Positions 16,271 to 56,262 of a DNA stretch of 64,000 nt are shown one piece after another (the stretch's first letter is position 1; every line of letters starts with the position of its first letter). This DNA is from Bryum argenteum (taxonomy: Eukaryota; Streptophyta; Bryopsida; Bryales; Bryaceae), in assembly GCA_037043015.1 (NCBI GenBank), contig CM073321.1:24937510-25001509 (forward strand), given 5' to 3'. Position numbers and translations under genes: made by a program. The notes under the pieces were generated by a model. That model did no database searches and had not been told where the DNA came from. It saw only the letters and a program-made list of their open reading frames with translations.

Positions 16271-16321
16271 CTTGGTATCAGAGCAGGCTTTTAGTACCCA
16301 AGTGCAAAGTTGTGAGGGAGC

Positions 16322-19300
16322 AATGGGCAAGAAGAAGACCATTGAGGGTGATGAGGCTGGAGCTTCCAAGCGGCCACGCACGAGGGGGAACAAAGACCCC
16401 GATCCTACAAGTGAGGCTCATTCTCATGACTCCAATGAGCAAAGCCGCCACTAGTGAGGGCAATGAGCAAATGGAATTGTCACTTCAAGAGGAGCCCTTG
16501 GGTGAAGAGGAGCGCTCTAGGTCGAGACGCCTAGAGTCTTCCCAAGGGGTGGAAAGACAAGATCCTCAATTGGCTTTCCAAATGTGAATGCTTGAGTTCA
16601 TGGACTCCGTGAATCAAGAGCTCAAGCGTGGGAAGGAAGAAAGGGATCGCCAAGAGAGGTTGATTGAACACCTCATGATGCAAGGGTCCCGACCTTCATC
16701 TTCCACCAAAAAGTTGGCTAAGGTAAACATGCCAAGCACCTTCTCGGGACTTGGTAAAGCAAGGAAGGTGAAGGAATTCCTTCTTGAGATGGATAACTAC
16801 TATGATGTCCAAAAGCCGGATGAGGAGGACAAGGTTTCCATTGCGGTGACATTTCTCAAGGATCATGCTCTTCAATGATGGACAAGCAAAAAGGAGCAAG
16901 AGCCGGAGTTGGTGGCAAACTTGACTTGGGGTGGCTTCAAAGACTTGTTGAGTGAACGCTTCACACCGTAGTATCGGGAGTTGAGGGAAGGCATGAACTT
17001 GGTGCAAATGAGGCACACCGGGTCTCTCAAGGCCTATGTGCGTGACTTCAATGCCCAAATGAATGCCACACCCAAGATGGATGAGTTCTCTAAGAAGTGC
17101 ATCTTTTTGGGTGGGCTTCAAAAGTGGGTGGTGGATGCCTTGTTCAAGTTCCCAAAACTTCCTGAGGATGTGGCGGGCATCATCAAGATTGTTGAAAGGA
17201 TTGAGGTGATGGACCCGAGAGGAAGTCAAGTGGCCCCTCTCAACAAAGCGGATCAAATAGGAATGCGGCTCGAGGCAAAGAGCGCAAGAAGTTTGGCTTT
17301 GGCAACAAACGCAAGGGACAAGTGGATGGTGGAGCCTCTAACAAAAGGGAACACCAAGGGGGAAAGCCATCTAAAGGGGGAGACAAAGGTGATGACACCA
17401 AGGCCAAGAGGTGCCATGGTTGTGGCAAGATTGGCCACTTCATTGCGGAGTGCCCCGACAAGAAGGTGAGTACCATTGCAAGTCTTGCTTGTGTTGAAGA
17501 CCGCATACTAGAAGGAGGTTTTGTGGCCAAGGCAAGTAGCCTCAAGCCAAGGCCGGGCCTCTTGTTTCTTGAGGCCCAAGTGAAGAACAAAGATGTCTCA
17601 TGTTTGGTTGATACAGGGGCAACGCACTCCTTCATGAGTCCCAAACTAGCAAGGGAGTTGGGCTTGCCACTGCAAAAGGCAAGCAAGCCCATCAATGTGC
17701 GTTTTGCAAAGGGCGAACCGCACAAGACGGAGGAAGTGGCGTTGCAAGTGACCTTGAAGTGTGGGACATTGGAGTTTGTTGAGAATTTCACATTATGTGA
17801 GATGGATGAGGTAGACCTCATCTTAGGGGATACCTTCTTTGAGGCGCACACGGTGGATGTGAGGCGCAAGCCAAAGACGGTTAGTGGTGCGCCGTGATGG
17901 CAAGGAGTTAGTGTTGAAGTTAACTCGTGGCCCTTCAATAGCGGGGGGCAAATTAAACTTGGTCTCTTTAGACCAAATGTTGGAACATCAATTTGTGGTG
18001 ATGGCTCGTGAAGAGCAACTTGGGCATGAGGGGAAGGGGGTGCAACAACCACTTCCCAAAGAAATTCAAGAGGTGTTGGCCAAGTACAAGGATGTGCTTA
18101 CCAATGAGTTACCCAAAGAGCTACCCCCAAGAAGAGAAGTGGATCACAAGATCGAGGTGCTACCTGGAGCTGAGCCACCTTCTAAGGCACCTTATCGGTT
18201 AAACCAAAAAGAGTTGATGGAGCTAAAGAAGCAACTAAACGACTTGTTGGAAAGGGGTTATGTGAGACCAAGCAAGTCACCATATGGTGCACCGGTCCTC
18301 TTTGTGGACAAGAAGGATGGCAAGCTTAGGATGTGCATTGATTATAGGGCCTTGAATAAGGTGACCATCAAGAACAACTACCCTTTGCCTCGAATTGATG
18401 ATCTCTTTGATAGATTGGCGGGAGCTAAGTACTTTAGTCGCATAGACTTGAAGTCGGGTTACTACCAAATCCGCATTGCGGATGCGGATGTAGAAAAGAC
18501 CGCGTGCCGCACAAGGTATGGGTCTTATGAGTTCCTTGTGATGCCCTTTGGGTTGTGCAATGCACCCTCAACATTCACAACCCTTATGAACACCATCTTT
18601 CGAGAGGAAATGGATGACTTTGTGATTGTCTACATCGATGACATCTTGGTGTTTTCCAAGACGGCCGAGGAACATGCAAGGCACCTTGAGGCAAAGTACT
18701 CATGAAGCTTAGAGACAACAAGCTTTATGCTAATGGGGAAAAGAGTGAGTTTGCACAACTTGAGATGGAGTTCTTGGGCCATGTGGTTACCGGAGATGGA
18801 ATCAAGCCGGACATGAAGAAGGTGAAGGCAATTCAAGAGTGGAAGCGGCCTTCTACACAAAAGGGACTTAGGTCATTCCTTGGCCTAGCAAACTACTATC
18901 GCCGCTTCATACGCAACTTCTCTAAGATTGCCAAGCCTTTGTCCGACTTGTTGAAAAAGGGGTGAACCAAGTATGGGATGAATTTTGCTACCAAGCCTTT
19001 GAGGAACTCAAGAACAAGTTGTCATCTCCACCAGTGTTGAAGTTCCCTGAGTTTGATAAGCCCTTTGAGGTCCACACAGATGCAAGTGACTTTGCCATTG
19101 GAGGCGTCTTGATGCAAGATGGTAGGCCAATTGCCTATGAGAGCAAGAAGTTGGATGGGTGTCAAAGGAGGTGGCCAACTCACGAGAAGGAGCTCTTTGC
19201 GGTGGTGCATTGTTTGAAGACATGGCAACATTACTTGGGGTTGCACAAGACTAAGGTCTACACCGATAATGTGTCTTTGAAGTATTTTGAGACACAAGCA

Positions 19301-26017: not shown

Positions 26018-27390
26018 GCAGGTCCTCGCCGTTTGCAGCTCCCCCCGCCCATTTGCGCCGATCGTCGCCGTCTTCGTGCTGCTATTCATTGTCGCATTCT
26101 TATCGCGTCGCCCTCGTCTCGCCGTTTGCGCTCCTGCTCGTCGCGGTCCTGTTCTTCCGCAGTTGCTGCGCGCTGCTCCTGCTCGATCGACGTCGTCCTC
26201 CTCGTTGGCGCGCTCCTTCGCGCGCCTCCTCCGCTCTTGTTTTCTACTGCTGCGCTTGAGCTGGGATTCCTGCATTCAAGTTTTATCTTCGCATTTTCGA
26301 GTTTCCGCTTGAGCTAGGGTTTTCGCATTCAGCTTTTCGATTAGGTCGTGCTGTGTTTTTAACCCTGATTTGCGGCTAGGGTCTCTGCGCTTTCGGACTG
26401 CCCTAGCGCTTGTTTGTGCTCTCTCCATTCTATTCAGGTATGCAATTTCCATACACGATTGCAATTTGTTACGCAGTTGCATTTCAATTTGATGTTGCAT
26501 TTTGCGACCTCTCCGCTCGATTGATTTTCCATAACTAGAATAACATTGTGCATTTAGGTCGATGGGTGTGCATTTAGGTCGTAAAATCAGGAATATCCTA
26601 TTTCACGAGCTAAATGCACATCTTTTAGGTCGCAAAAACTGGTATCTCCAATTTCACAAGCTGAACGCACAGCTTTTAGATAGCTGCCTGCTAAACGCAC
26701 ACTTTTTAGGTAGCTGCCTCCTAAACGCACAGCTCTCATGTAGCTGCCTGCTTAACCCACTGCTTTTAGGTAGCTGCTTTCTAAACGCACAGCTTTAAAG
26801 TAGCTGCTTGCTAAACGCACACCTTTGATGTAGCTGCTTTCTAAACGAACTGCTTTTAGGTAGCACCCTGCTAAATGCACATTTTTTAGGTAGCTGCCTC
26901 CTTAACGCACAGATGTTAGGTACATGCCTTCTCAATGCATATCTTCTAGGTAGCTGCTTGCTAAACACACATCTTTTAGGTAGCAGCGTGCTAAACCCTC
27001 ATTTTTTAGGTAGCTCCCTGCTAAATGCACACTTTTTAGGGAGCTGCCCCCTGATCGCACACCTCTTACGTAGCTGCCTCCTTAACACACTGCTGTTAGA
27101 TAGCATCCTGCTAAATGCACATTTTTTAGGTAGATGCCTTTTTAACGCACATCTTTGACGTAGGTGCCTACTAAACACACCACTTTTAGGTAGATGCCTG
27201 CTAAACGCACATCTTTTAGGTAGCTGCCTGCTAAACGCACATCTTTTAGGTAGCTGCCTGCTAAACGCACATCTTTTAGGTAGTCGCTAAACGCACACAT
27301 CTTTTAGGTAGCTGCCTCCAAAACGCACATCTGTTAGGTAGATGCCTAATACCGCTTAGCTTTTAGGTAGCTGCTTGCTAAACGCACAGT
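26018..27390 (+). repeat. Element X terminal inverted repeat, right copy, inner part
   Basis: Resumes after the LTR-type insertion with CTCGCCGTTTGCAG and a GC-rich leader. It then has CTAGGG and GTGCTCTCTCC..CAGGTATGCAATTTCCATACACG, GCGACCTCTCCGC, a pair of GTGCATTTAGGTCG motifs, AATATCCTATTTCACGAGCT, and the ~31-bp array. The same order occurs in reverse complement at 2780-1690, with clear base-level similarity. Confidence 0.78.
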
Positions 27391-27408
27391 TATTGCGGTG
27401 AATTGCAG
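26438..27408 (+). other. Inferred 5'UTR intron of gene B
   Basis: Donor TATTCAG|GTATGC at 26438 and acceptor GAATTGCAG ending at 27408, two bases before the ATG at 27411. Its position and donor context mirror the leader intron proposed for gene A. Almost all of it is the tandem array. Inference from splice signals. Confidence 0.5.
26553..27388 (+). repeat. Degenerate ~31-bp tandem array (right copy)
   Basis: About 27 units close to TTTTAGGTAGCTGCC + TGCTAAACGCACATC. The last few (27190-27290) are nearly identical while the earlier ones have drifted. Each unit holds TTTAG..CTAAA spaced as in the 21-base palindromes found elsewhere in element X. Inverted relative to the 1690-2612 array. Confidence 0.92.
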
Positions 27409-29005
27409 ACATGGCTCGCACCAAGCAGACTGCTACAATTGTTCCCGCTCCCGCTGAGAGGGACATCCGTTCTGGGAGTCAGGATGAACCTCTTGACAAT
27501 CAAGTATGAATTTTTCTTGTACTTTCATGGTTTGTTTTTTAAATTCTGAATTCATATCCAGTACATGCATTTCGAGCTAATTCTCGTTGCTTCTTTTTAA
27601 TCAGGTACCGTTTGACTTGAGTACTATTGAAGGATACCTGGAGCCCCTAGTTGTCGAGACCACAGATGTCCTTGCCTCTGCTGTCGCGGACGTCGAGCAA
27701 TACGGCATGTTGTGGACTCCTAAGCCGAATTCCATTGTGTCGTGGTCCTTGTATCCGAAGGAGAAAGGAATTTTCCACCTATTTCAACAGTCTGGAACTA
27801 ATCCAGCCCATCTCCCATTCTGCAACAACACTTTCATATACTCGGTCAACTATGAGGAGTGACACCTTTTAATCACGCTTAAGGTGACCTACGTTCGTGG
27901 ATTCGTCTTCACCATCGTCTTTCCTACGAATGAAGTGCGATACTCGCACAACACTATCAAGGGCTACATGGTGGGGAAGACGGAGGCGGGACTCGTAGAC
28001 CACATCGTGGGTGGCATACTGAATGTTAGCTCTCCGAAGAAATTCGTGCAGACCTAACAGCAGTATTGCATGCATATCTGGAGTGCGCTGAACGACTACG
28101 AGAGAAGCAAGGCGAAAGACAAAGCACCCGCAAAGAAGGCACTCATGCCTGCTTTTGAGGAGGGTATCGGGTCAGGAACAGCGCGGTCCGGTATGGCCTC
28201 CATTGAGGTAACTCCTACGCCTTCGCGGAAACGCCGCAACTCGAACCCCTCACCAGTTAAGCAGGCCAAGAGAATCAAGAGTAATTTGGGAGGCAGTACA
28301 ATTACGTACATAAATCCTTCAATCAAGCATGCCACAACCGAGAAGGACATCGACTATGAAGCAGCAAGTAAGACTCTGAAGGACTTTTGGGAAAAGTGCG
28401 AGCCTTGTTACGTTTTTGGCAAGGACTCGGCTCCTGTCAACGTAGACATCGATCTCCTCGAGAAAGGCGATGCGCGGTTCATCGTCCAAAGCTTGAGCCC
28501 GCTAGAGTTGTCCATTACAGGAATATCTTGACGAATTTGATCGATTTGAATTCAAGGCAGACCATCATCATCATGCCCATCATCACTGTGGCTCCTACGA
28601 CTTGGGACTGGAATGCACTACTCGAGTCAAAGTGCAACTTCCGTGTGATCGATGGGCAGCATCACGTCGAAGCTGCGAAGGAGCTTATCAAGGAGGCTAG
28701 AATCTCCCCCGATAAGATTACCGCCTTGAAGACTTGGCGGGCGCATATTGTTTGGCATTCAGACGCGAAGATGATCATGGACGTGTCTATCATGGCGAAC
28801 AAGACCAACAACGCGGGAACATTCACACAATCGTGGGCCACAAACATATTGGTCGCGAGAAGTGTTTGGATAGAATATGGGTCGTTCAAGAAGTGTGGTG
28901 CAAAACCCAAGTCTGGTCGGGAAACAATCGAGCAAGCTATCGCTCAATTGAACTATGAGGTAAGTCCTGCATTTTCTGTTAATTTCATCTGCTTGATTTG
29001 TGGCG

Positions 29006-29116
29006 TTTAGGTCGACACGACCTAAATTTCAGGTGTTTAGCTCGATGCGAGCTAAATTCTATGCGTTTAGCTTGACTCGACCTAAATTCTGTGCGTTTAG
29101 CAAGACTCGAGCTAAA
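29006..29116 (+). repeat. Four 21-base palindromes at exact 30-bp spacing in gene B intron 2
   Basis: At 29006-29026, 29036-29056, 29066-29086 and 29096-29116. The first is TTTAGGTCG / ACA / CGACCTAAA. The second is TTTAGCTCG / ATG / CGAGCTAAA: the arm change G>C is matched by C>G in the other arm. The third and fourth are imperfect. Similar 21-base units lie at 47658-47678, 48454-48474 and 49988-50008. Confidence 0.9.
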
Positions 29117-29270
29117 TGATCATCCCGTCATGTTCTTGAATTGATGTCGCTCTTTCTTCTTCAGGATTTTGAAGAGGCCATGGTCAAACGCTTCATGAAT
29201 ATCAACACGAAATCCCTCGACAAGATCTTGAAGCCAGCGGACCTCGTCAACGAATTAGAAATCATCACCG

Positions 29271-29278
29271 CTTTTGAG
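29271..29278 (+). repeat. hAT target-site duplication, left
   Basis: CTTTTGAG, against CTTCTGAG at 46405-46412 on the other side: 8 bp with one mismatch. Eight-base duplications are the hAT hallmark. Dropping one copy plus the element leaves gene B in frame (ACC GCT TTT GAG GAG GTA TAC). Confidence 0.92.
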
Positions 29279-29362
29279 CAGGGATGTCAATCCGGACGTC
29301 TTTTGGGTTTTTTTGGTCGGACGGACGTCCGTCCAGGACCGTCCGAACGTCCGTCCGGGGGG
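29279..29362 (+). repeat. hAT left terminal/subterminal region
   Basis: CAGGGATGTCA terminus followed by palindromic GGACGTCC-type motifs (GGACGGACGTCCGTCC). The right end (46321-46404) has the same motif type in inverted orientation. hAT transposases bind subterminal motifs of this general kind. Confidence 0.88.
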
Positions 29363-29461
29363 TAAATCGGGATTACTATGCATGTAGTAAATTTTTTAAC
29401 CGTCAGATCGTATTGAAAATCGCATCGTAGCCGTTCAAATATTGTTGTGAGTGTAGGTGAT

Positions 29462-29951
29462 TACCGTTGGATTCAATCGGGCGGCCCAGGACCGTCCGAT
29501 TGGCCTTGCCGACCGACCGGTCGACGCCGTCGGATCGGTAGTAGCCGACGGATCGGTCGCTTGATCGGACACCGGCCGTCCGATCGGTCGCGGTTTCGGT
29601 CGGCCGTCGGATCGGCCCCGGTCGGCGTCGGCCGTCCGATCGGTCGCGGTCGGCGTCGGCCGACCGATCGGCCATGATCTCCGTCGGCCGTCCGATCCGC
29701 CGCGACCGGCCGGTCGGCGCCGGCCGTCCGTCGGCGGTCGGCGCGCCGCGATCGGTCGGGTCGGGCGGGCCGATCGGTCGGGCGGTCGGCGCCGGCCGTC
29801 CGATCGGCGCCGGCCGTCCTCGGTCGGTCGGTCGGCATGGCTGGCCGATCGGGTCGCGCCCGGTCGGCGCCGCCGTCGTCGGTCGGGCCGGTCGGCCATC
29901 GGCCGTCCGATCTAGGTCGCCGGTCGGCCATGCGACCGCGGCCTATATAAG
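29462..29951 (+). promoter_or_regulatory. CGGTCGG-rich block 1 with TATA box, upstream of kinase-like gene
   Basis: About 480 bp composed largely of GGTCGGTCGG, GGCCGTCCGATCGG and GCCGGTCGGC motifs, ending at a TATATAAGG box (29944-29952) about 170 bp before the ATG at 30117. Long open frames on both strands here are low-complexity artefacts of the repeats. Confidence 0.6.
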
Positions 29952-30116
29952 GCCGACCGGTCCTCCACTCTCCTCACTTCTTTCCTTCGTTATCAGGGTG
30001 CGGAGTAGCTGTAGGTTGGAAATTTTTTTAATTTTCATCCACTGGCTCCTTATCCTGCGGAGGGAAGAAGTCTTTTCGTTTGTAAGGGGGGAGATTTTGC
30101 TTTTTTTTTCACAAAG

Positions 30117-31528
30117 ATGCCCAAACATAGGGTTGGGGGTTGTGGGGGGAATCGAGGCCGGAGACCAAGGGTTGTTAGACATTTGGAGAAGTGGGAGCAC
30201 CCATCCAATAAGTGCAAGAACTTTCTTCGGGAGAATGTAATCGTGTGATTTTATGAGGCTAATAGTCTTCCACGTTTGTTTAGCAAATACGTGAGATACA
30301 AAGAGGAAGTTGTGGCCAAATTCAAGGAGGACATGATGGACCTCATGATGGAAGCGCTCCAAGATCCGGTGTGGAGAACGGAGACCGATAAGCGTGGTTT
30401 TACGGACTGAATGGAGGATAGATTAATTGATGCTCTTTGGAATGCTGTCGACATATTGAAGAGGTATGAGAGAACCACTCGAGCGGGTGATGAGGAGTTC
30501 AGGGATGTGGTATTGAGGACGGAGGCTTTTCAAGAAGTGATGAGGCCGTATTCCAATAATAAAAACCGGGTTGGTTCCATAGGATGGTGGCGCACGGAAC
30601 AAGGAAGGTTAATGGAGCTGGTTCGTACGAATAATTTGGTAGTAATTCCTATGACGGCCCGTATCATCGAGCTTGAGAAGAGGACTCTAAGGGGAGGATA
30701 CGGCACAATTTCCAAAGTTCACATAAGAGGGGTTGTGGGTATTGAAGAGTTTTGGGAATTTCTTTGCAAAGACTCCCATCCATCTTTGTGACACGACCGA
30801 GACTTCGCCAAGGTGGAGCATCGAATGAGGCGCTTCTTTGTGAGGATACAACATCCGGTGTTATTCGTTTTATAGCCATTCATGCAAATAAATTCCAAGG
30901 CTATACGTATTGGTGGAATGGCGGCACGATTCGATCGATGTTGGCCCTTGATGCAAGATATGGAGATGATGTTCATGGAGAGATCGGACTCTCACCTCAT
31001 TCGATGATGAGCTTATTCGAGCTTGGCGGTTGGTTCGGTTCCGCAAAAAACGAACGAGCTTGCTTGGGCTTTAGTGCATATCATGTGTGAAGTCCACCGG
31101 TTGAACTACCTCCACAACGATGTGTCTCGGACAACATACTTCTTCACTTCCCTCAAGATGAATCACGGGTGTATATTGGAGTATGTGATTGGGGGCTAAC
31201 TACGAGCATGGATGATAAAATGAGGTCCTTGTATACGTTCACAAAACCCCAAGAGCGAATTGATACTCTACAAGCACGATATTGGGTAGATCCTCGGGTG
31301 GCGTACTTGTACAAACGGAGTGATGACATTCACATTATTCCCCTTCTTGATTGCGCTTCGGAGGAGTTTGCTACGGCACGAATAGCACAACGCATCCTCA
31401 AGAAGAGCATGTCGAAGGCCTACGAGAATTGCCAAAGTACAACGGGGGGCGACCGGTGGTGCAATCAAGACTTGGCAAATGCTTTTGACCAATACTTGGA
31501 GATGGTGGCGATGCAAAGTATACGTTGA
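30117..31528 (+). pseudogene. Kinase-like gene with HND and DWG motifs, broken
   Basis: The start at 30117 (MPKHRVGGCGGNRG) follows the TATA box at 29944. Then come a helical-looking region, a glycine-loop-like 'GGYGTISKV' (about 30690-30720), 'YTYWWNGGTIRSM' (about 30905), 'LNYLHNDVS' (about 31095), read as the catalytic-loop equivalent HND, and 'YIGVCDWGL' (about 31170), read as the DFG-equivalent DWG. Next is 'RYWVDPRVAYL', like the APE region. I recall this divergent kinase-like family from bryophytes. Lesions: TGA codons near 30246, 30408 and 30789 (each fits CGA>TGA) and frame changes between about 30840 and 31170. Likely dead. Activity of even an intact version is doubtful, since no clear lysine of the ATP site is seen. 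Confidence 0.65.
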
Positions 31529-32319
31529 CCCACGTTGTCAACCGCTTCATGGAATCATTCCATTGGCGGTGCCAAATGATCATTATCGCACCAAGTATGA
31601 TTAGCAAATTAGTTATGCGCATTTCTTTTAGTTCTTGCGGCTTTATTAGATTTTTAGATTCTTCATTGAAGTTCGATGTAGATGTAGGCAAATTTTTGTA
31701 GTAAAATGTATTACATGCCTTCTATATGTATCGGCTTCAAGTACATTCTTGTTTATATATACCTTGCACTGATTCTAATGAATGACTTCTTCTCCATTGT
31801 TTGTTATTTTATTTTATTACTTCTTACCTTCAATAGAAATATCTCCAAATCTTCATGAACAATATTTGAGAATGTATAATGAATTGTGGAACTTCTTCAT
31901 TACATCAACCTTGCGTAGTTGCGATATTAATAGTTTTTCCGAAGTCAGCTAAAGCATAATATGACTTCTCTTACATATGCTTTTTTTTGAATGAATTGAT
32001 GAACATATTATATGTTAGGTGAGAGTGTGAGACTGTGAAAAAAGGCTTAAAGCCAAACAGAAGAAATTATTACCACCAAGTGAACTTATAGTATAAAATA
32101 CAAAGACATCGCCATAAAATCCTTGAAATAACAAATTACATAGTATATTAATATACAACGATATAGTCCGATATTGGATAATCCATTCATAAACAAAATA
32201 TGGATTTCTGTATCCTCAAAATTGGCCCCTAGCAAGGCGATAATGGTGTAGACATTATCCGTTGCCAAAAACTACATAACCTTCACTACAATGACACTAT
32301 GTATGATGATTTGTCATTC
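31529..32319. other. Gap without recognised gene
   Basis: AT-rich tail after the kinase-like gene, running to the end of the minus-strand CKKYVKMY gene. Probably the two 3' ends facing each other. Nothing else recognised. Confidence 0.6.
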
Positions 32320-33575
32320 TTAATCCGATTCTTCATCATCGTGTTTACGACTTGGCCTTGTGCCGTAAGAAGGTGGTCCTCGAGAAGATTCTCCAAACAA
32401 GTACGTTTGCCTAAAGTTTCTTTCGGCTTCAAGCTGTTCAATGTATTCCTGCTGACTTAGAAGTGTGGCTTGTTGCAGATCTTGTTGGTACCTCGCCTCT
32501 TCATCATCCGGAGATAGATAAGGTGCTGAAGGCAGGTCGTTACTTCCGTATGCATTCTGACCATATCCATAATTTGTGTAGCCAACAATGTCTCGATCTT
32601 CTATCATATTGACCTCCATACTCGTATGTTTCCTTGGTGTGATGGCCTACGGTACTCGGGACTTCGAATGTTGTACCGTATTGGTTCCCACGATTGTATG
32701 GGTTTATAGGATGAGTTGGGCTTGAGTTGCATTGAGCATTGGATCCGCTACCCTGCTCACCTCCTAAACCATGTGTACCTCCTGTATACATTGGAGATGG
32801 GTAGTTCGAACTAGATCCACCTCTACCGTACTCGCGTTCGGCTCCGTACGTGTTTTCTTGATGAGGTGGCATATAACTCACCGAGTCTTGAATTGGTGGT
32901 TTCCATGGTAATACCCCTCACTTCTGTGCCAAAGGATATCGGTGCTTGACGATCGTCATGGTTTGAGTCTTGCTGAGTGCCCCCATATGCCCTTGGAGTT
33001 CCATGTTGTTGAAGTTGGGCATCCATATCAGCTGAACGTTCTGAATACGTAGTATAACAATCGCTTGGTCCCATCCAATTTGTGGGAATGAATCGGTTGC
33101 TGCGATCCAATAAATGCACGTTCAAACCTATCACAGTGGTCCAGTCAATGTCCTTGTGCAGGACTATTTCAGCCCACACCATGGCCATGGTAGAATACAA
33201 CATCAATTCTGGCCTTGTGTTCTTGATTCCACCTGCAATTGTGACTTCGTGATATCTGTGCGCAAAATGGTCGCTCTTGCAACTCTTCACTGGGCCTTCA
33301 CGACGAGGACCATATTTCTCTGCTTTGTGCCGCGGCCATAACTTCATGATGTGGTACATCTTCACGTACTTCTTGCACATGGTGCAATTCCAAATGTCCG
33401 CCCTCTCCTCTCGCCAACCCGGCTCTGCAACACAATTTGGGTCACTCCATGCTTCCCAATCCATTTTTGGAGGGTCGCCCTTTGGTCGTGGAGACTTGGC
33501 CTCGCCCCTCGAACGTGAAAACTTCGGGCGCCATTTCAGCGACAAGTATGCGCGGTGTGGGCGTGGGTGACCCAC
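32320..33575 (-). pseudogene. CKKYVKMY-domain gene, copy 1 (broken)
   Basis: The minus-strand frame starts MGHPRPHRAYLSLKW at 33575. It holds 'WNCTMCKKYVKMYHIMKLWPR', then 'SCKSDHFAHRYHEV..RPELMLYSTMAMVWAEIVLHKDIDWTTV', and ends in a Gly/Tyr/Ser-rich tail with a charged QLEAERNFRQ stretch, closing DDEESD. The Cys/Lys/Tyr block and the DHF..H pair also occur in the plus-strand gene at 39.36-39.62 kb, so the two are paralogues; a small zinc-binding fold is possible. Frame changes lie near 32.9 kb and 32.6 kb. A TATA-like ATAAATA (33671-33677) and a GC-rich block lie upstream. No function is known to me. Confidence 0.55.
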
Positions 33576-33670
33576 GCGGACTCGAGTAACACGATCGATG
33601 CGGCTTTAAAAAAAGCCGCAACGCACGGCAAACTCGTTCACTGCGAGTGAGGACAATGAGCCCCTCCTCC

Positions 33671-34000
33671 TATTTATGCCGACCAGGATCGGACGCCATT
33701 GGCCGGTAGCATTGGCCGTCCGATCCCGGCCGGCGACCGCCAAGATCTGACCGTCGGGTCGCCGACGTCCGATCGGTCGATCGGGGCCGCCGATCTGGCC
33801 GACCGATCCGGCCCGGCCGGCGACCGGCGGCCGGCGGCCGGGCCGGAGACCGACGACCGGGCGCGAGACCGACGGCCGGTAGGGCGGCGGCGGCGACGGG
33901 CCGAGACCGACGACCGTAGGGCGACCGGCGACCGGGCCGGAGACCGACGACCGGGCCGGCGACCGACCACGTCCCCGGCGGCGACCGGTCGGTCGCTCCT
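33671..34000 (-). promoter_or_regulatory. CGGTCGG-rich block 2 with TATA-like box, upstream of the minus-strand gene
   Basis: GC-rich GACCGGCGACCGGGC-type repeats. On the minus strand they lead to ATAAATA at 33677-33671, about 100 bp upstream of the start at 33575. Same arrangement as blocks 1, 4 and 5. Confidence 0.58.
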
Positions 34001-36714
34001 TCCGCGTCTCCCCTTCCCCCTCCTCCTCTTGCCTCACCCTAAAACTCCCCGTTTGCACAACTTCGAACACTTCCTCGCCTTGCATACCTGCATTTTCAAA
34101 AGTTCTATATTTAGCCTCTTTGGTCCACGTGGCGTCTAAATAAGGACAGGGAATGTTCTGACAAGGGAATGTCGGGAATGTCTTTTCGTCATAAACGGGA
34201 ATGTTTTATGACAAAGATACTATCGGCTTTAAATAAACCTATAATAAGGGACTCTTTGCAAGAGGAGGGGAGGCCAACAAATCTCCAATCCAATTCACGC
34301 ACTTTTTGAGTTATGTTGCCCAATTAGCTTTAATTGAACAATACATTTAACAACCAATTTAGTGGGGCCAATTTTCCGAGTCGTGAAGTCCTTTGGAGTT
34401 GAAGCCCATGTCTAGAAGGAGAGCCAAGGCCATGGGGCCAATTCTTATTATTAACTAGAGTCCATGTTTTTTTTTTGTACACATTTATTTTTTATTTTTT
34501 ATTTTTGGAATTATTCTTCCCTAACACCTTAACAACCATGGCCACCATTTCGTCTTTTATATCACGGCCAAAAAATGTTTTCATATTCAATTTCAAATGT
34601 AATGATCTCGCATCTAGTGATGATCCAACGGTTGAAGATTTCACACTACTACATATGGTAGTTTACTCAAGATCCTATGGTTGAAATTATAAAGTATATC
34701 CAAAAATATTGGACATAGCCCCTTTGTAGTGAAACCACCTATTCTCGTACACTTAAGGAAAATTGAGGGAATCTATATACTTGGTGTGAGAAAGGAGTGG
34801 GTTACTATTTTTCACGGATAGGAAATAGAAAAAGACAAGCTAACCCTATTTATGTGCTTTTTAAAGCACACACAAAGAAATACAAATTTTATAGGGAGAA
34901 GCCTAAAGGCGGGCACCCTAAATATGTACGCATAATGTAAATGCAAGGGAGGTGAGATCTTTATAAAGTCAAGAATCTTTGCCTCGCGCCTTTAGGTGCT
35001 TTCATCATAGTTCATAGTGGTGAGTGCTAGTATTGCAAGCTCCGTCCCCCGATTCACATTCATTTCTTCTATCTCCCAACTTTTGTCAAAATTTATCCAT
35101 TCTCACTAGGAGATTTTGCCATGTCTTGGCCCCCATTCATGACTTGCCCCGTGCTGTGTACCCTGAGGTGGCCCTAAATCCCCTCTGATTACATTCCATA
35201 AATTTTACCTAGTCCTTGGTGAGAGTATATTGATGTCTCACATTGGAGAGATCCAAGTATATATGAAATGTAGGTGATCATGTGTGAGCATTTACTTTTC
35301 ATAACTTTGGTCTTACTGAGTTTGTCAATATTTAGACTTTCTATTTGGGCCTTAACATTTCCACATTGTATGGTCTATATTAATTGATGGGTATTTGGAA
35401 ATTACTCCGTCGTTGTGTATTCTGATTAGTAATACTTAATATAAAAAATATGGTGCATAAACAATTAATTCTATTATTCGCTATTTTTTGTTTGACAACC
35501 TTCAACTAACCTAGGAGAATATATATAATCTAGTACATATGATTAATTGTAGCATTATTCTTATTGTATGGATTTGAATAGTTACTTATTCCCCTCTTAC
35601 AAAGGTAATTGAAATAAGTTTTCATTGTTACTATTTTTGCAATCATAAAATAAGAGAAATAAATAGGAGACAAATAAATTTTAAAAAATATCCCACCCTA
35701 TAAGTGTTTAACATATGGCAATAATGGCATCAACTTCTAAATTTTTAAGCATATTTGATATTGTACAAGTATAGTACATTAGTACTAGGATTAGATGTTA
35801 TATCAAATTGATTATTCGTATACTATGATTGATTGATTTGGGAATAGAATATTTTCAAGAGCCATCACTTCTTCATTTCTTGTATGTAATGGATACATTC
35901 TCTTGTGGATAAACTTTAAGTTCTTGGTTAAAGATGTATGAATTACTATGTAGGCCTCTAGGGTATAGGGTTTAGGGTTTAGGGTTTATGGTCTTGAGGA
36001 TTTGGGGTGGATTTCATTTTAATCCTAGTTTTTGTGTTGCAAAGCTTTGCAAACACAATTGTGTGTGGATGTAAAATAATGGATTATTGTATGTATGGTG
36101 TAGTTCTCAATTATATTTTACATGGATACAAGTTGCACTTCTCTACATCGCATAGTTAATGTGTGCAAAATAATCTATTTTGTATTTATCATTTTTGATT
36201 GAAGATGTTATTGACATGGAATAAATCACACATTTATTGCAAAGAATATATAGGTACAATATTAAACATCAACATACGAATTATGATTCCAGAGTCTTCA
36301 ATCTCATAGCCTATTTTAAACCAATATTGGAATAGAGTTACTATTGTAGGTCATGTGGCTCGAGTTTAATTCATAGAGCCTCATAGATCATAACGTATGA
36401 AATCTTGAAGTAGTGTGCATGCGAAACATCTTTGAATTCGTGAAGATCTATACTTTTATGGAGTTCACTCGAAATGGTTATGAACTTAAAATTTAAAGTT
36501 CAAATGTATCCGTGAAAAAAGAATACTTAGCATTTCAGAAATCAACATAGGATTCCCTTTTCATTGTGTAGTAATTACTGAAAATCGAGTAACAGAAATC
36601 TTTGAGAAATAAAAAAGGATCCTATGCAATTTTATCTTATTTTAGTTATATATTTCAGGAAAAAAAATTTTTTAAAAAAATAAAAAAAAAAAAAAAAAAA
36701 AAAAAAAGCATCTG
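34001..36714. repeat. Long direct repeat, copy 1, AT-rich, no gene
   Basis: Shares ordered, diverged blocks with 36840-38690: CCGTTTGCACAACTTCG, CCACGTGGCGTCTAAATA, TGGGGCCAATTCTTATTAT, CTAGTGATGATCCAACGGTT, ATTTCAGAAATCAACATAGGAT and AAATAAAAAAGGATCCTATGC. Copy 1 is longer. It contains a short TTTAGGG run at 35966-35988. No coding region recognised. Confidence 0.82.
35966..35988 (+). repeat. Short TTTAGGG telomere-type run (about three units)
   Basis: TAGGGTTTAGGG then TTTAGGGTTT. Matches the common plant telomere unit, but only about three copies, so it is an interstitial motif or chance. Confidence 0.7.
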
Positions 36715-36850
36715 CGGCCCCCATTTCGGTTGGCCGCCATGGGCGAAGCGTGCGCGCCGGCGCCGGCGTCGGCGGCGGCCGGCGGCGGCGCCCGCCGACC
36801 GGCTGCAGACCGACCACGTCCCCGGGCGACGGTCGGTCGCTCCTTCGCGT
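36715..36850. promoter_or_regulatory. GC-rich block 3 (orphan)
   Basis: GGCGCCGGCGTCGGCGG and GACGGTCGGTCGC motifs, as in the other blocks, followed by the second copy of the duplicated segment. It is preceded by a 30-base A-run. No gene start lies beside it on either strand, so it is probably a duplicated leftover of block 2. Confidence 0.5.
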
Positions 36851-38545
36851 CCCCCCTCCCCCTCCTCCTCTTGCCTCTCCCCAAACTCCCGTTTGCACAA
36901 CTTCGATCACTTCCTCGCCTTGCATACCGCATTTTCAAAAGTACTATATTTAGTCTTTATGATCCACGTGGCGTCTAAATATGGACAGGAATTTTTCGAC
37001 AAGAGAATGTCGGGAATATCTCTTTGTCCCACGCGAGAATGTTTTATGACAAAGATACTCTTGGCTTTAAATATATCCATAGTAATGGACTTTCTTCAAG
37101 GGGAGTTAAGGCGAGCAAATCTCCACGCCAATACACTCACTTTTTGAGTTGTTGTGCCCAATTGGCTCGAATCGAAGTAAACATTTAACAATCAGTATAG
37201 TGTGGTCAATTTTCTCATTTGTGAAGGCATTAAGAGTTCATGCCCTTGTTTATAAGGAAAGCAAAGGCAATGGGGCCAATTCTTATTATAAGTTAAAGAC
37301 CATGCTTTTGATTGTACACCTTAATTTATTATTGTTAAAATATTCCTTCTTAACCCCTAAAGATCCATGGACACCAAAGTGGAGGTTTCCTATTTCGGGC
37401 AGCTTATATGAAGAGGTCAAAAGTAATAATTTTTTATTAAATTTTTTCTAGGTGGTCCTTACACCGCAAAGTGCATGTGGTAAAATTTGCATATCCAAAT
37501 TCCAAATTTACAACCTACATCTATAATATTTACGTTTGAAGTCCATTAAGGGTAGTTAAATTTAGTCTTTGTTTGAAATTCTTTTTGGAAATATGTTCAT
37601 GAACAATTTACTACTTGATTCCAAAGTGACCCAAGTCAAAATGTTTGTCTATTTCACAAGGGTACCGTTGAGAGATTACAAAAATAATCTTCACAATTTC
37701 TAGTAATTTCCGATATAAGTCATATAACTCTTTCTTCGATTGATTGTTTTGAAAATATAAAATTTTAAATAGGCATCTCTTCTTCATTTAGAGTATCTAG
37801 TGGATAAAATCACTCGTGGATAGGATTTGTGGTTTATGCTTTAGGATGTATGAATAACTCTTTAGGATGAGTTCCAAAATAAGTGTCCTACATTAAGATT
37901 AGGATACTCCAATTGACATTCTCAACCATGCAATATTGGAATAGAGTTACTGTTGTAGGTCATGTGGTTAAAAGTTAGATTCATGAAGCCAATGGTCAAT
38001 TAAATTACAAAAAGAAAATAGAGAAGAAAGATATTGATTCGAAACCAAATGAATGCCTTATGTTTGAAACATCTATGAATTTGTGAAGATTTACACTTTA
38101 AAGAGTCCACTCAAAATGGTTATGAACTTAAAATTTAGAGTTAACCCCTAAACGACCACGGCCACCGATTCGGCGTTTACAGTGAAGGAAAAAATAATTT
38201 ACAGTCAACTTCAAACGTTATGATCTCACATCTAGTGATGATCCAACGGTTAAAAATATTCACAGTACTACCGATGGTAGTCTACTTCAAGATCCTACGG
38301 TTGGAATTATCAATAATTTCCAAAAATATTGGACGTACCCCCATTAGTACATAGTGGTCGTCATTTGGGATTTCAAGCTCCGAAACATTGTGGATTTTTA
38401 GGGGTTAAGATGTATCCGTGAGAAATAATATATTGCATTTCAGAAATCAACATAGGATTACTTTTTTGGTGTGTAATAATCTTTGAGAATCAAATAACAA
38501 AAAACTTTGCGAAATAAAAAAGGATCCTATGCTATGTAAGATCTA

Positions 38546-38634
<89 letters not shown>

Positions 38635-38690
38635 TTATTTATTTATTTATTTATTTATTTTATTTTTAAAAAAATTGAAAAAAATTGAAA
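36840..38690. repeat. Long direct repeat, copy 2, AT-rich, no gene
   Basis: Second, shorter copy of the 34001-36714 segment with the same landmarks in the same order. It shows that the middle of the hAT element was duplicated in tandem, offset about 2.8 kb at the left end and less towards the right because of deletions. Confidence 0.82.
38552..38662. repeat. (TA)n then (TTTA)n microsatellite
   Basis: About 80 bases of uninterrupted TA followed by about 30 bases of TTTA units, at the right end of the duplicated segment and directly before GC-rich block 4. Likely unstable in length; assembly here may be inexact. Confidence 0.97.
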
Positions 38691-38699
38691 AAAAAAAAC

Positions 38700-38920
38700 G
38701 TGGCGCCCACATCGGTCGGCCGCGTTGGTCGACCAAGCATCGGCGGCCCCACGATTAGCCGGCCACATTGGTCGGCAATGACGCCACGATCGGTCGGCCG
38801 GATCGACCGCCCCACGATCGTCGGCCGGACCGCCGCCAAGATCGGTCGCGGCCGTGATTGGCCGAGCCACCGGTCCGTGCGGCCGGTCCCTAGGGTTGGG
38901 AAGGAGAGGGGATAAAAGGG
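38700..38920 (+). promoter_or_regulatory. CGGTCGG-rich block 4 with TATA box, upstream of RING gene
   Basis: GATCGGTCGGCCGG-type motifs run to about 38890, then GATAAAAGG at 38911-38919 and a pyrimidine-rich leader before ATG 39114. Same layout as blocks 1, 2 and 5. Confidence 0.6.
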
Positions 38921-39113
38921 CTTTGGGGCCTCATTTCCCCTCACTTCTCCTTGTACTCATCCATCTCAATCGAAGCCGCAACCGTAAGCATTAGCTTCTC
39001 GTGTGCTGCATTTGTGGTGGCGGGGGGAAGTCAGCGTGATACTTGCGGCTGCTGCATCGAATTTTTGCATACTTGGGATATCTTCGGGGTATTTTAAATA
39101 CTCCCTACTCTTC

Positions 39114-42518: not shown

Positions 42519-42891
42519 AGTTAGAACAGATGTTGGACCTTAAGTTCCACATATATATATATATGCTTTTTTTAGATTGTATGGTTGTTGTTTTAAAATT
42601 GAGGAAAATGCCACCATTGATCCATGGGGCCTTATTTTTGAAGTAAAGGGTTACAATCTTTTTGATTTAATGTGCATTTCTTTTGTATGCTTGAGAGTGA
42701 AGACTATCGTACGACAAGTATGTAAAAATATATGTAATATTTTTCAAAACATTAAATGTAGTCATGTAAACAATAGAATCTCCAAATGCATTTGGAGTAT
42801 AACAATAAAGTACTGCAGTAAACTATAACTACAATTTCTATAATAAGTATAAGTCCTATGAACCTATACTACATAAAGATGCGAAATTCAA
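42519..42891. other. Convergent 3' ends, no gene
   Basis: Short AT-rich spacer between the end of the plus-strand RING gene and the end of the minus-strand transposase. Nothing else recognised. Confidence 0.6.
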
Positions 42892-46260: not shown

Positions 46261-46320
46261 TCGACCAATGAACGCACCCCGTTGGTCATTTACCCTTAGT
46301 AAAACGACCAGATTTTCTAA

Positions 46321-46404
46321 GTCACTGACGGTCCCCGGACCCCTGCCGGACGTCCGACGGACGTCTGCCGGACGTCCGGACGTCCGGACGCTGTGACATC
46401 CCTG
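46321..46404 (-). repeat. hAT right terminal/subterminal region
   Basis: Ends TGACATCCCTG, the inverted match of the left terminus, with several CGGACGTCCG-type palindromes next to it. Followed by the duplication CTTCTGAG (46405-46412). Confidence 0.9.
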
Positions 46405-46412
46405 CTTCTGAG

Positions 46413-47633
46413 GAGGTATACCAGCTGTGGTCCGAAGTTATCATTGCAGTCGGGATGGGAGAGTTGATCGACCCCGACACTTGCGAGCCTTTCAATCGGG
46501 CTCCTGACTGGGAGTCAAAATCCAAGGAAATCGTCTTGACTCGCGATACCTTCAGCCAAATGTCTGGATTTGAGGAACACGACTTCAAGACATTAGCGCT
46601 TCATCTTCTGAATAGGACTCCGGATCAGGACCTACCGTTTTCCAAGGTGTCTTTGAAGAAACCGAAGCTGAACTACTGGGAGTGCGTTTCGATAAAGGTG
46701 TGGCTGGAGAAGCGCAAGAGGAAGAAATGCGTTGCAAGAGAGTTCTACAGTATTAAGTCAGCACTGGGGTTATTTGACAGTGCCGATAAGTTTGTGGTTG
46801 AAAAGTGGAAGCTTTTCAAGTTCGATTACAACGTCAATCGGCAGACCATGTCGATGCTCCTTTCCGTGCCCGGGGACATGTTCTTCAGCGACTACCGCCA
46901 GAAGAGGACGAAGAACAAGAGTTCTGAAGAGATCTCTGAGTACGCTGCGGAGTTCTTCAAGAAATTTTTGGAAGTGAAAGGGGATTTTTTGCTGCCAACT
47001 CCGGAACTTCACACACGAATGTTTGATGCTGAGATGTTTCAATTTGCTGGCTCGGATAATGGGTATAGTTGGGACGATGGAAGATACGCGTTGGGCATTA
47101 TCGACCTCAGATGCGTCCCGGGCCATAGTAATAGAGTGGACGATATTTCGAATGTCTACTTCAATGACTTCCTGAATGCTTGGAAGGATTCTGTGTATGA
47201 CCCCTCTATAAAGAATCCTGACGTCTGGCTTATCATTACGGAGACTACCGATTGCCATTGCCAGGCCGTCGTATATTTCAACGCGTTCAAGGATTTGTAC
47301 AAGTCGAAGACTATCCACTACGCTTCTGCGAACAATGAGCGTGTCGACGGTATCTTGGAGGGGAAGGTCGTGGACAAGCACCGCATTCCACTCTTGTTTC
47401 TTGTGAAGAGAACCCACCAGGTATCCGAGCTATTTGATGAAATTCCGGAGACATTCTATGCCCCGGAGTTGCCCCTGTATTAGAAACCAGGAGCTTACAG
47501 GGAGTTCGTTTTCTGCATCAACGACAACGAGTTGCGCTTGGAGTTTTACATTCGCGTACTGCGAATGTTTACAGTTCCAGGAAACAAATTTCTGTCGATT
47601 ATGGCAGAAACAAAGCCCATGCTTGCAGGAATT
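46413..47633 (+). pseudogene. Gene B, exon 3 continued (middle region)
   Basis: Resumes exactly in the frame broken off at 29278 (..TAFE / EVYQLWSEVIIAVG). It encodes about 400 residues of a folded-looking domain with 'LNYWECVSIKVWLEK', 'YSWDDGRYALGIIDLRCVPG' and 'NPDVWLIITETTDCHC'. I recognise no family. An in-frame TAG at 47480 fits CAG>TAG; coding continues after it (KPGAYREFVFCINDNELRLEF) to a GT donor at 47634. A 21-base palindrome lies in the following intron at 47658-47678. Confidence 0.72.
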
Positions 47634-47752: not shown

Positions 47753-50137
47753 ATGCTTAATCTTCAGACAGATATTGTCTACAAGGACAAAGATGAGTTG
47801 GATAAGTACATAGCCGTCCGAGAAAGTAATTTTAATCTCGATCCGAACGACTTCTGTGTGGACGCTTATGTGAATCCAGATTGGGTTCATGGTCCGAAGC
47901 TTGGGTGTTTGCCTGAGGCTGGGTTTGACGGATCTGCTCGTCGTGGTCGTGGGGAGGCATCGTCATCTGGTGGTCGTGCTTGTCGTGGTGATGCATCGTC
48001 CTCTAGTGGTCGTGCTCGTCGTGGTGATGCATCGTCCTCTGGTGGTCGTGCTCGTCGCGGTGAGGCATCCTCTCCTACTGTGGCTCCTGGTGGCAAACCA
48101 TCGTCTGCTGGTGGTGGTGATCCGTCGTCTGCTGGTCTTGCTCGTGGTGGACGTCCATTCTCTGGTGGCCGTGCTCATGGTAGTAATCCGTCGTCTGGTG
48201 GCCGTGAAGGCGGTCCTTCATCCGCTGTTCCCGGTCGTGGTAGGGCTCGTTCATCCGGTGGTCGTGGTGGTCGTGGTCGTGGTCGTGGTCGTGCATCTAG
48301 TGGGCCTTTTGGCGTGCGGGCTTTAAGCATTGAGCCCATACAGAGCATCGATCCTGTTCACAGGAACCTGCTGATAAATCTTTCCGCTGATAACGATGTT
48401 GATGAAGTTCTTCCATTGGTCGAGCGTCGCGGCTCCTTGGCCCGCGGTGGGGGTTTAGGTCGCACCGACCTAAATCCCCCTACACTCCTTGAGGAGACAC
48501 TCGCCTCCACGGGCCTCCCCGATACTCTTAGCGACGATGATAATGAAGAAGATAACTCTGATCATCGTCGAGAGACACGCACCAAGGCTACAAATGATGT
48601 TTTCGGGTCTGAGTCGGAGGAGGAGGTCGTTCTTGGGCAAGAGAGATTGCCGAGAGATGCGCCTACTTCCGATAGTTCTGACGCAGAGAACGCTGAAGAG
48701 GGTGCCGAGGAAGGTACTGCAGGGTGTGACGAAGATAACAATATTGATCCCTCTCCCATGAATTTGGGCAATGATGTCGTCTCCTCCCCGGCTCCTATGC
48801 AAGCCCCATTGTCGAAACTAGGAGGACAAATGAAATTAACGCCGCCTCCGACACTTGCAAGAGAGCCATCGCCGCCCCAGCCACTTGCAAGTGAGCCATC
48901 GCCGCTTCTGCCACTTGCAAGAGAATCATCCCCGCCTCCGCCGTCTCTTGTGCTCCCATTACCTGCTCCTGCCCCTGTACGCGGACGGTACCTTCCTTTG
49001 TTGAAGAAGGGTGTTTGGAATACTCACGCTGACGACCCTGCTGAGAAGGTGGAGACTCCATTTTTGATTTCTCGGGTGAGCCGGATTTGCCCACGCCAGC
49101 AAAGGAGGCTGACGATCCGCTCATCAATCTTGGTCTTGGTCCGCAAGAGAAGGGTAAACCTTCACAACCGCGAGTGAAGATTGAGTCGAACATTCCCGTT
49201 CCACTCTCGAAGGATGCCAAGCGTGCCCTGCGTGAGAAGGAAAAGGAAGAGAGAAGGGCTGCCAAACGAGCTGAAGAAGAAGCCGCAAATGCAAGACGGG
49301 AGGCGCAAAGACTTGCAGATCTTGCGAGTTGGACAAGCAACAACGAGAAGATCAACTCAAAGTCGAGTCGAAGTTTGTGAATTTGGAAAACTCAAATTCC
49401 AGGGTTTTTGGCGATTTGAGCAATTTGAGGGTCGTGTTGACGCAGATGGCACAGGTGGCTCTTCCCCTTGCCTCCTACAACCCCGTCAATCAGCCTACTT
49501 TGGCTATCTGTGGGCCTTCGACTTCCACCACCCAAACTCCACCCGAACTCGCAGCACCTCCGAATCCTGCAGTTCCAGCCTGCATTCTTCCTGCTCCGGC
49601 TACGCCAGTACCCGACGTTGTTATTGAGGAGATCATTAGTGCCGCATCTCATTCGGAAGTTGATATCGCCAAGCAGGGGGAGAACGATGGCGTTCATCCG
49701 CTCGAGACGCTAGACCACCGAAATGACAATGTGGATTACGAAGCAAGCGACCACCAACAAGCAGATGAAGATCTTCTTGACATTGCTTCCTCACTCTTGG
49801 TGACCTCCGTTTCGATTGATGCAAACTCCGTGCATGAGGTTCCCGCGGGTAGTCAAGACTTGCAAAAAGATGCACAGAGAGCGGTTCAAGGTGCCCCAAT
49901 CTCCCTTAACTCTGCAAACAACGAACTCGACTCAGTACCTGCGACTAATCCCACGGTGAGCTTCTTATCAATTGTAGCAAATCATGTTTAGGTCGGGTCG
50001 ACTTAAATTCCTGTTTATCTGGTTGATGAGCATCTACTCATATTATTGCTCTGCTTGTATGATTTTTCATTTTGTAATAATTCTTAAAGCCGGCGCTCCC
50101 TGTTTTACAGGAATTCGGCATTGAAGACGGCGAGTAG
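47753..50137 (+). pseudogene. Gene B, last exons: RG/GRA-rich tract, coiled coil, C-terminus
   Basis: Exon 4 starts at 47753 after TTTTGCAG and ends at 49955; a GT..AG intron (49956-50110) leads to a final 27-base exon ending TAG at 50137. Residues: 'LNLQTDIVYKDKDELDKY', then about 130 residues of RG/SSGGRARRG-type repeats (about 47935-48310), like RNA- or chromatin-binding RGG tracts, then acidic and Pro-rich spacers. Next is a Lys/Glu/Ala-rich coiled coil (KEKEERRAAKRAEEEAANARREAQR, about 49230-49320) and an acidic tail. A 21-base palindrome (48454-48474) is translated within the exon as part of GLGRTDLN. One-base frame changes lie near 49.05 and 49.33 kb. Confidence 0.7.
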
Positions 50138-50211
50138 GTCTTGCGAGTTAGTCTTCGAATTATTGGATGGTGTGCCACGATTGTAGATAGTACCATGTAG
50201 TGACATCCCAT

Positions 50212-50217
50212 TCAATA
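50212..50217 (+). terminator. AATAAA signal after gene B
   Basis: AATAAA lies 75 bp past the proposed stop codon, consistent with a polyadenylation signal. Weak by itself. Confidence 0.45.
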
Positions 50218-52305
50218 AAATGAAGACTTTTTATTTTATCACTTGCGTCTGCACTGCGTCCGCGTCATTCTCCCTCATTCTTTGCGCTAAATATCGTCAT
50301 TTCTCTATCAGGCCTTCAGAATCTTCAGATTCCTTTTCGCAGCCCTTTCTCTTTTCAGATTCTTTTTCTTTTCAGACTCCTTTTCTGTAGAAGAAAGAGA
50401 GTCTTACCAATTCAACAACCATTGTGAAACTGAAAACTTTGCATTTTCAGCAGTTAGAGTACCTTTTCTAGAATTTTTCATGTACATATACTTGTCCATT
50501 GTTAATCAAACACATGTTCATTTTTTGTGTGTCCGTCTGCGAGGAATGTGCATATGTCTACCAAGGTGAGTGCTTCGTTTTGCGATCCCTGGCGCATCGT
50601 AGTTGGCAGCTTCAATCTGAACTACGATCACCTTCTTAATTGTTTAGATGATAATGTTGGTAATTGCACATGAGTCTGATTTTTCCAGTGCCGATTGTAT
50701 GCACACTGCCGTTTGACATTCGAGCCTGATTTTTGCTAATCAAGAGGCTTGTGGAGATGTAAGTACATAACTCTGCAGGTAGAATTATGTAATGGTAGAT
50801 TGGTAGTGCGAGTATCGAGTTGTAGTGGTTCTCCGCTGTTATGGTGATTCTGTGCACGAGACACAAATATGTTAATGGACGAAGGATTTTCATTGCGGAG
50901 AACGCAGAGATTGAAGCTGTGAATACGACAGAAGCTGTAAATTTGCCAAAGGCTGAAGATGTGAGATGTGAGTACAACTAAGACTGAAGCTATGAATCCA
51001 CCGATTAGTGAGGCGGTGAATCCACTGACTACTGAAGCTGTGAGTACACCGAAGATTGAAGCTGTGGATGCACCAAGCTTGGAGCTGTATGTTATGAGAA
51101 GGAAGGCTTCAAGTTACTGCGACCTGCACTTTTGAACAAGGTAAATGTAACACTTTCTTAGCCATTTCCTTTACAGGTACTATCTGTGCAACAGTTTTAA
51201 GTATTGAGCAGGCTCTACCTGCTATAGATGTTGTTCACATTCTTTGCCATGGCTCGTCGTCCTCTTCCTATCTTATCTCGCTCCCGATGGTGTAAAACCT
51301 CGTTTTTCGTGTACAACATTCTAGAGTGATTTGAAGGTCCATGTTTTGCTTGTCAAGATGCTATTTCAATCACAATCACTTCATGCGTCTTGAATATTAT
51401 GCTGTGTGCTAATGCTGAAGAAACAGTGCTTTAAGTCAGTTGAAATTCATGAGATTTGTTGATTTCATACAAACTGTCTTTGAGATTTATAGAGTGATCA
51501 ACTTGAACCGATGTGAAAGTAGAGCCTGGTTCTGAAAACATAAATTTGTAGGCTAAAATTGGAGGGTATTGGAGGGTCTCAAATGGACACCAAAATGCTA
51601 GAGATCAAGGCAGCTCTTCATGTAGTGGAGTTTCTGTTTTCCAGAATTTTCGACTAGCAGAAATTAGTTAGCATCGGTATCCAAATTCGAGCAACTTGAA
51701 GTCAGCTGCATTCGAATATCAAGAAACGCTTATCGAATTGAAGCTCGTGACGTCGCTCAACTCTTATCCTCGCGAAGCGTCTTAAGGTGAGCCAGCTGAA
51801 GACATGGCTCTCTCAAAGTTCACATTTATTTTGAGGAGCTCTACTTGGATTAAAAAAGTTTATTTTTGGTATTTTTTGTAACATTCCACAAGTTTGGTGA
51901 GTTAGGAGCAACATCCAATTTATGGAAGCTCATTTGGATTCATAGATTGTTCACAATAAGCCTCCAAATACAAACAAGGGAAGGTTTTCTTAGTATAAGA
52001 AAATTTATTATTTTGGTAAATTAAGAAGGCTAATTATAAGTTTCTTGTGGCCTTTCTCAGTTTCACCGTAGAACATCTAATTTTAGCCAATCATACAAAT
52101 TTCCAAACACTAAAAGCGAAAAGTACATTTATATTGATTTTCAGGGTTTTACTCTTTTTAATTAGTTTCAAAAAAATATCACCTATTTAGGAAATTACTC
52201 GCACAAGATTAGTTTTTTACAAGTAATATAAGAATATACTATTTGTAACTCAATAGTAAGGGTAATAGTACTAAGAATTCTCCTTCTCATGTTGCAGGGT
52301 GCAGT
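50218..52305. other. Intergenic stretch, no gene recognised
   Basis: A degenerate repeat near 50905-51090 (GAAGCTGTGAATAC..; peptides like EAVNPLTTEAVSTPKIEAV in one frame) may be the remains of a low-complexity coding end. Nothing else supported. The far end of element X may lie in or beyond this stretch but I could not find a third copy of its terminus. Confidence 0.5.
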
Positions 52306-56260: not shown

Positions 56261-56262
56261 GT

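Follow-up and report, generated by a model that had tools for sequence, protein, structure and literature searches.

Mimicry of histones has been described in host factors and in viruses, and anti-silencing proteins of transposons are also known. The A-R-T-K-Q start of histone H3 is recognised by PHD and WDR5 proteins, and the SNAG domain, which begins with Pro-Arg, occurs in zinc-finger repressors. SNAG peptides are described as mimics of the H3 tail in the LSD1 pocket, for which their Pro is required (PMC5896174). Silencing in Arabidopsis has been linked to H3K4 demethylation via an LSD1-type enzyme (PMC13157976). VANC21 has been described as binding arrays of a short motif in the introns and upstream non-coding DNA of its own transposon VANDAL21 (PMC5735166), and VANCs as countering silencing (PMC10398659).

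Gene B lies in a 64,000-nucleotide stretch of the Bryum argenteum genome, hereafter the window (contig C1:24937510-25001509), and the genome searched comprised 258.8 Mb in 25 contigs. Gene B resembles the VANC genes of the Arabidopsis VANDAL elements in anatomy and not by sequence alignment: both encode a multi-exon element protein, carry tandem motif arrays in introns and upstream DNA, and have a motif that differs between branches (PMC5735166). On the other hand, the motif is a 21-bp palindrome here and a 9-base motif there, and the accessible part of the VANC description contains no H3 start (PMC5735166). The SNAG domain of Snail and GFI1 shares with gene B the position at the extreme N-terminus, the resemblance to the H3 tail and, in the case of branch 2 of the gene B family, the Pro-Arg start (PMC5896174), whereas gene B carries seven or eight residues in the letters of H3 itself and within a repeat-family protein. 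In comparison to histone H3, branch 1, to which the window copy belongs, has the first seven residues of the mature tail and branch 2 has residues 2-8, whereas residues 12-30 of gene B match H3 at 0 of 19 positions. No histone fold was found in exons 2-4 by Pfam scan. In the portion of the open-licence full-text literature that could be searched, no transposon protein bearing an H3 N-terminus was found.

Gene B and its repeat family

The gene was modelled with five coding exons from comparison of the window copy with the copies at C1:43.33 Mb and C1:5.23 Mb (Table 1), the span from ATG to stop being about 5.7 kb in the latter. Its first coding exon (27411-27503; 93 nt, 31 codons) encodes a protein beginning MARTKQTATIVPAPAERD and abuts the donor GTATGA at 27504; the next acceptor ends at 27604 and exon 2 opens with GTACCG at 27605. 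Reading of the DNA confirmed the exon coordinates and the MARTKQTA start at 27411 given in the original prediction, and the tip motif pattern has one match in the window and none in the shuffled controls (100 shuffles). A translation start at the ATG of exon 1 fits the predicted acceptor of the 5' UTR intron, 2 nt before it, and the predicted leaders, which are free of any earlier ATG in 11 of the 12 rows where a donor was found (36 rows scanned, the window and L009 being one place). The exception, L003, has two ATGs in its predicted leader, 142 and 192 nt upstream, and an in-frame stop precedes the exon-1 ATG in 10 of the 12 leaders. After Met removal, the predicted free N-terminus would be ARTKQTA in branch 1 (imitating H3 residues 1-7) and PRTKQTAR in branch 2 (imitating H3 1-8).

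Table 1. Gene B and the surrounding repeat in the window
Feature	Position	Strand	Remarks
Repeat 5' part with predicted non-coding leader exon	26018..26437	+	Ends CAG before donor at 26438
Predicted 5' UTR intron, 971 nt	26438..27408	+	Acceptor GCAG two bases before ATG; splice sites by sequence
30-bp tandem array, 24.4 copies, within predicted UTR intron	26660..27388	+	21-bp TTTAG...CTAAA palindrome-like units
Coding exon 1	27411..27503	+	Reads MARTKQTATIVPAPAERDIRSGSQDEPLDNQ; ATG at 27411; sequence and copy comparison
Exon 2	27605..28959	+	About 453 codons in open copies; stop-broken in window
Intron 2	28960..29164	+	Four palindromes in 30-bp register (29006, 29036, 29066, 29096)
Exon 3, first piece	29165..29278	+	5' of nested insertion
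Exon 3, remainder	46405..47633	+	3' of nested insertion
Exon 4	47753..49955	+	Low-complexity C-terminal part
Exon 5	50110..50137	+	Terminates at TAG stop
3' UTR and sharp repeat 3' end	50138..50314	+	Copy comparison

The window copy is a pseudogene: exon 2 runs into a stop after 85 codons, and exon 3 is interrupted by a 17-kb insertion. It is truncated on the 5' side at 26017/26018 by another repeat; other copies align up to this point and a different repeat lies before it, the 5' end of the family repeat being further out than the DNA covered. At the opposite side the repeat ends at 50314, and the 39 scored copies besides the window (40 in all) stop at query base 206-209, within 3 bp. The nested insertion (29279-46404, 17.1 kb) is hAT-like, with the ends CAGGGATGTCA and TGACATCCCTG and the flanks CTTTTGAG and CTTCTGAG (8 bp, one mismatch); inside it are a DUF659 ORF at 43886-45397 (minus) and, at 40911-42518, an ORF of 535 residues that includes a RING-H2 finger.

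Other elements were also seen in the window. ORFs for a Ty3-type gag, protease and reverse transcriptase occupy 13877-18705, and those at 55145-59658, which match DUF6570 and, weakly, the Pif1 2B domain, may belong to a Helitron. An element with two genes was also considered: at one locus, C1:5.23 Mb, a DUF7869 gene (E 1.5e-43) is present upstream of gene B. An ORF at window positions 3-1319 (minus), 25 kb from gene B, is 47% identical to this gene over 150 residues, and palindrome-like units occur upstream of that ORF, at about 1.7-2.7 kb. At C1:43.33 Mb, the 7.7 kb upstream of gene B contains no long ORF like the DUF7869 gene, as judged by ORF reading and not by homology, and no mention of DUF7869 was found in the open-licence full-text literature.

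Genome-wide, the exact MARTKQTA pattern was found at 55 sites (34 on C1, 21 on other contigs; control 0), 43 of which are of the gene B repeat family and 12 of which were taken as H3, eight being read and four being judged by spelling and by position within 20 kb of read H3 genes. On C1, 33 of the 34 sites run on into family residues and the remaining one (C1:29336348) is followed, about 280 bp further on, by a family exon 2; on the other contigs 17 of the 21 were read, nine as family and eight as H3. Hence, in this genome the repeat encodes the H3 start more often than the histone genes do. With exon 2 DNA as the query, so that the tip played no part, 103 candidates came up, and the 40 that were scored are all located on C1. 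Among 30 branch-1 loci picked by exon 2, the tip is exactly MARTKQTA in 20 and has one or two residue changes in eight, ARTK being retained in all 28 loci that have exon 1, while in L028 and L036 an exon 1 could not be recognised. Branch 1 is concentrated on C1 (34 of 43 exact family sites and 40 of 40 scored exon-2 matches), a contig of 44 of the 259 Mb.

Over 3.6 kb, copies from C6 and C3 share 98.0% identity, so the movement has been recent. Many family copies are pseudogenes. Gene B encodes the protein of a repeat family that is dispersed and has moved recently, and the repeat membership proposed earlier is upheld by the dispersed near-identical copies and their sharp 3' end. In gene B itself, Pfam scans of exons 2-4 found no transposase domain. 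One copy, L010 (C1:24849023), lies about 116 kb from the window copy in the opposite orientation; the two show 100% identity across the 255-bp exon-2 query and near identity further upstream, and may perhaps form an inverted segmental duplication.

Gene B is under purifying selection, with dN/dS of 0.11-0.43 for nine branch-2 copies without an exon-2 stop and 0.21-0.43 for exon 2 of four branch-1 copies. The protein collection contains 11 relatives of exon 2 (47-66% identity) and 12 of exon 3 (25-83%); no exon 1 was seen among them, and the 1259-residue query returned no full-length relative. A viral or bacterial origin was rejected as no exon-2 relative was found in viral contigs or in GTDB prokaryote genome contigs. 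The viral contigs also contain no exact match to the tip pattern or the palindrome. Pfam and NCBIfam, the latter giving nothing relevant, revealed no known domain for DNA binding or chromatin in gene B, and no solved structure matched exon 2. Like the DndB or DGQHR-type proteins (PF14072), exon 2 of open copies has a DGQHH motif; in contrast to them, it stays below the profile cut-off (E 0.02, 14.4 bits against a curated 29.1), with 3 of 15 family members at E ≤1, and NCBIfam holds nothing related. Among solved structures exon 3 had only a PRMT7 motif match (E 0.54); it was considered as a methyltransferase, for which this match was too weak. As judged by its sequence, gene B fits no assigned protein family among the domain libraries scanned.

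The H3-like tip across the branches

Branch 2 was found with a metagenome homologue as the query. Of 996 candidates 92 were scored, and the 93 matches obtained lie on contigs C1, C3, C6, C7, C8, C9 and C10, the best of them being branch 2. In exon 2 it is 51% identical to branch 1. Its first exon reads MPRTKQTARIVQMAANAPAEPEINMEVEQQESAPE and its protein begins MPRTKQTARIVQM, encoded by codons other than those of branch 1. MPRTKQTAR is exact in 17 of 30 branch-2 loci and present in its general form in 28, the exceptions being L060, which is another branch, and L071, which has an indel. The mature N-terminus predicted for the two branches, with R at position 2, therewith imitates the H3 tail as exact ARTKQTA in 20 of 30 and as exact PRTKQTAR in 17 of 30 loci. 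Allowing up to three mismatches, the pattern occurs at 162 genome sites (control 0); among the 100 sites listed, 51 have the exact branch-2 form (50 Pro, 1 Ser), and the 62 outside this list may include an H3 gene.

Representative copies of the two branches agree at 9 of the first 11 residues and at 2 of the following 19, and among their six RTKQTA codons four have changed silently and none otherwise. In exon 2, dN between the branches is about 0.43-0.46 and dS is 2.2-3.2 or saturated. In a tree of 32 rows, metagenome proteins stand between branch 1 and branch 2, which fall in different supported clades. The test proposed originally, whether the tip is kept while the next residues vary, is hence positive between the two main branches, the comparison being made among copies within one genome. 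This agreement pattern suggests that the tip has either been constrained or been reached twice. Within branches (28 and 27 loci, leaving out L028 and L036, and L060, L073 and L084), the tip is no cleaner than its neighbours, and mature positions 5 and 7 (Q, A) vary in several copies. This observation counts to some extent against selection for mimicry and against the mechanism favoured below; from the sequences, it is nevertheless probable that the tip was selected as an H3 mimic.

The minor branches have the tips ARTRTTAR, ARRRTTAR and A[RG]IKSTAR. The L060 type reads MARRRTTARIVR, with relatives such as MARTRLTARIVR and MARGRTTAKIVR, the L092 tip is MARTRTTARIIPAPAN, and L090 along with four pattern sites has MA[RG]IKSTARIVP. 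Two copies adjoining branch 2 in the tree (own fork, 94/89 support) carry MARTRTIAK and MPRTSTTAK. The family-wide core is M[A/P]R-x-[K/R]-x-T-A-R-I-V, and T3, K4 and Q5 differ in minor branches, K4 being R in several of them; many of the minor-variant copies are decayed. Homologues lacking the motif, which the original prediction had named as evidence against itself, therefore exist in part, namely in the minor branches. Either the ancestor may have had the full H3 start, with T-K-Q lost in minor branches, or it may have been ARTRTTAR-like, with T-K-Q gained separately in two branches.

Palindrome arrays around the coding exons

The palindrome unit was defined as TTTAG-N11-CTAAA with at most one mismatch (21 bp, mostly TTTAGCTCGASTCGAGCTAAA) and was counted in 25 of the 30 branch-2 loci, without L060, L072, L073, L084 and L089. 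In these loci, 374 of 377 palindromes are outside exons 2 and 3. The DNA upstream of exon 1 has 324 in 32.5 kb (0 in one shuffle of that DNA), intron 1 has 25 in 2.4 kb and early intron 2 has 25 in 3.3 kb, as compared with none in exon 2 and three in exon 3, each represented by 33.5 kb. In the branch-1 copy of the window, the 24-copy, 30-bp array (26660-27388) just before the MARTKQTA exon is made of TTTAGGTAGCTGCCTGCTAAA types, and intron 2 has TTTAGGTCGACACGACCTAAA types; one unit is located inside exon 4, at 48454. At C1:5.23 Mb, a similar array is present ahead of the DUF7869 gene that lies upstream of gene B.

Possible roles of the tip

Gene B may encode a chromatin protein that targets its own element and displays a false H3 tail to the enzymes acting on that tail, a reading of the sequences which we regard as plausible at somewhat less than even chance. 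In this mechanism, the gene B protein or a partner would bind its own palindrome arrays, which by analogy can be suggested tentatively, and the array-bound protein would present the false tail to proteins gripping the H3 N-terminus. An H3K4 demethylase of the LSD1/KDM1 type would be the likeliest class of target, itself a rather doubtful assignment drawn by analogy; it was chosen because this pocket accepts both the H3 (Ala-Arg) and the SNAG (Pro-Arg) starts, and the family has A or P at position 1 and K or R at position 4. With the pocket of such an enzyme filled, the chromatin of the element would stay H3K4-methylated and expressed, an anti-silencing role comparable to that of VANC.

The tip could instead serve as bait that COMPASS/WDR5-like or PHD proteins methylate or read, which would bring H3K4 methylation to the element. 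Branch 1 has the exact A-R-T-K-Q which this needs, but branch 2 (51 exact among the 100 sites listed) starts with Pro (50) or Ser (1) and never with Ala, and K4 is R in several minor branches; such recruitment is distinctly unlikely. Another explanation is that the N-terminus is kept for some unrelated function, such as import into the nucleus, contact with DNA or binding of an element-internal partner, and that the H3 letters of the large branches are a coincidence. What the minor branches retain is the core M[A/P]R-x-[K/R]-x-TAR-IV and not T-K-Q, and the I-V after the tip, which is not H3-like, is retained as well. Against coincidence, all six letters RTKQTA stand at the mature N-terminus in two branches of separate clades, and we consider this explanation somewhat unlikely. 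It is also unlikely that the two branches reached R-T-K-Q-T-A convergently from an R-T-R-T-T-A-like ancestor and that the false tail at their own arrays disarms H3K4 demethylation or recruits H3K4 machinery.

The remaining explanations concern the origin of the exon. The original prediction had called it selected or captured, and selection is favoured by a tip kept between branches at saturated exon-2 dS. Capture of the 5' end of an H3 gene by the element is extremely improbable: codons 1-8 of branch 1 do match host H3 genes at 18-22 of 24 nt, but the branch-2 tip matches them at 16-18 of 24 nt, the 18 nt upstream match at 3-8 positions and the next 12 nt at 2-3, and the H3 genes read run beyond residue 20 before any interruption. 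The flanking DNA is unlike that of the eight H3 genes read, and this part of the prediction was not sustained. It is very improbable, too, that exon 1 is not translated as drawn and the motif is a by-product of repeat DNA, as the many pseudogene copies could suggest; the two branches, despite their unlike DNA, have the acceptor, the ATG, the open exon and the donor in common.

The tip may help the element to handle the machinery that reads or edits histone tails; that the product may recruit or titrate chromatin factors, as the original prediction had it, is likewise a suggestion. If the proposed false-tail mechanism is true, the counter-silencing of a transposon could be tested with a peptide of ten residues, and the tip variants found in nature (A/P at position 1, K/R at 4, Q/T/S at 5) would chart the tolerance of H3-tail pockets. 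Further, if the convergent reading is true, a selfish element would have come to mimic the H3 tail by convergence and would have a new route out of silencing.
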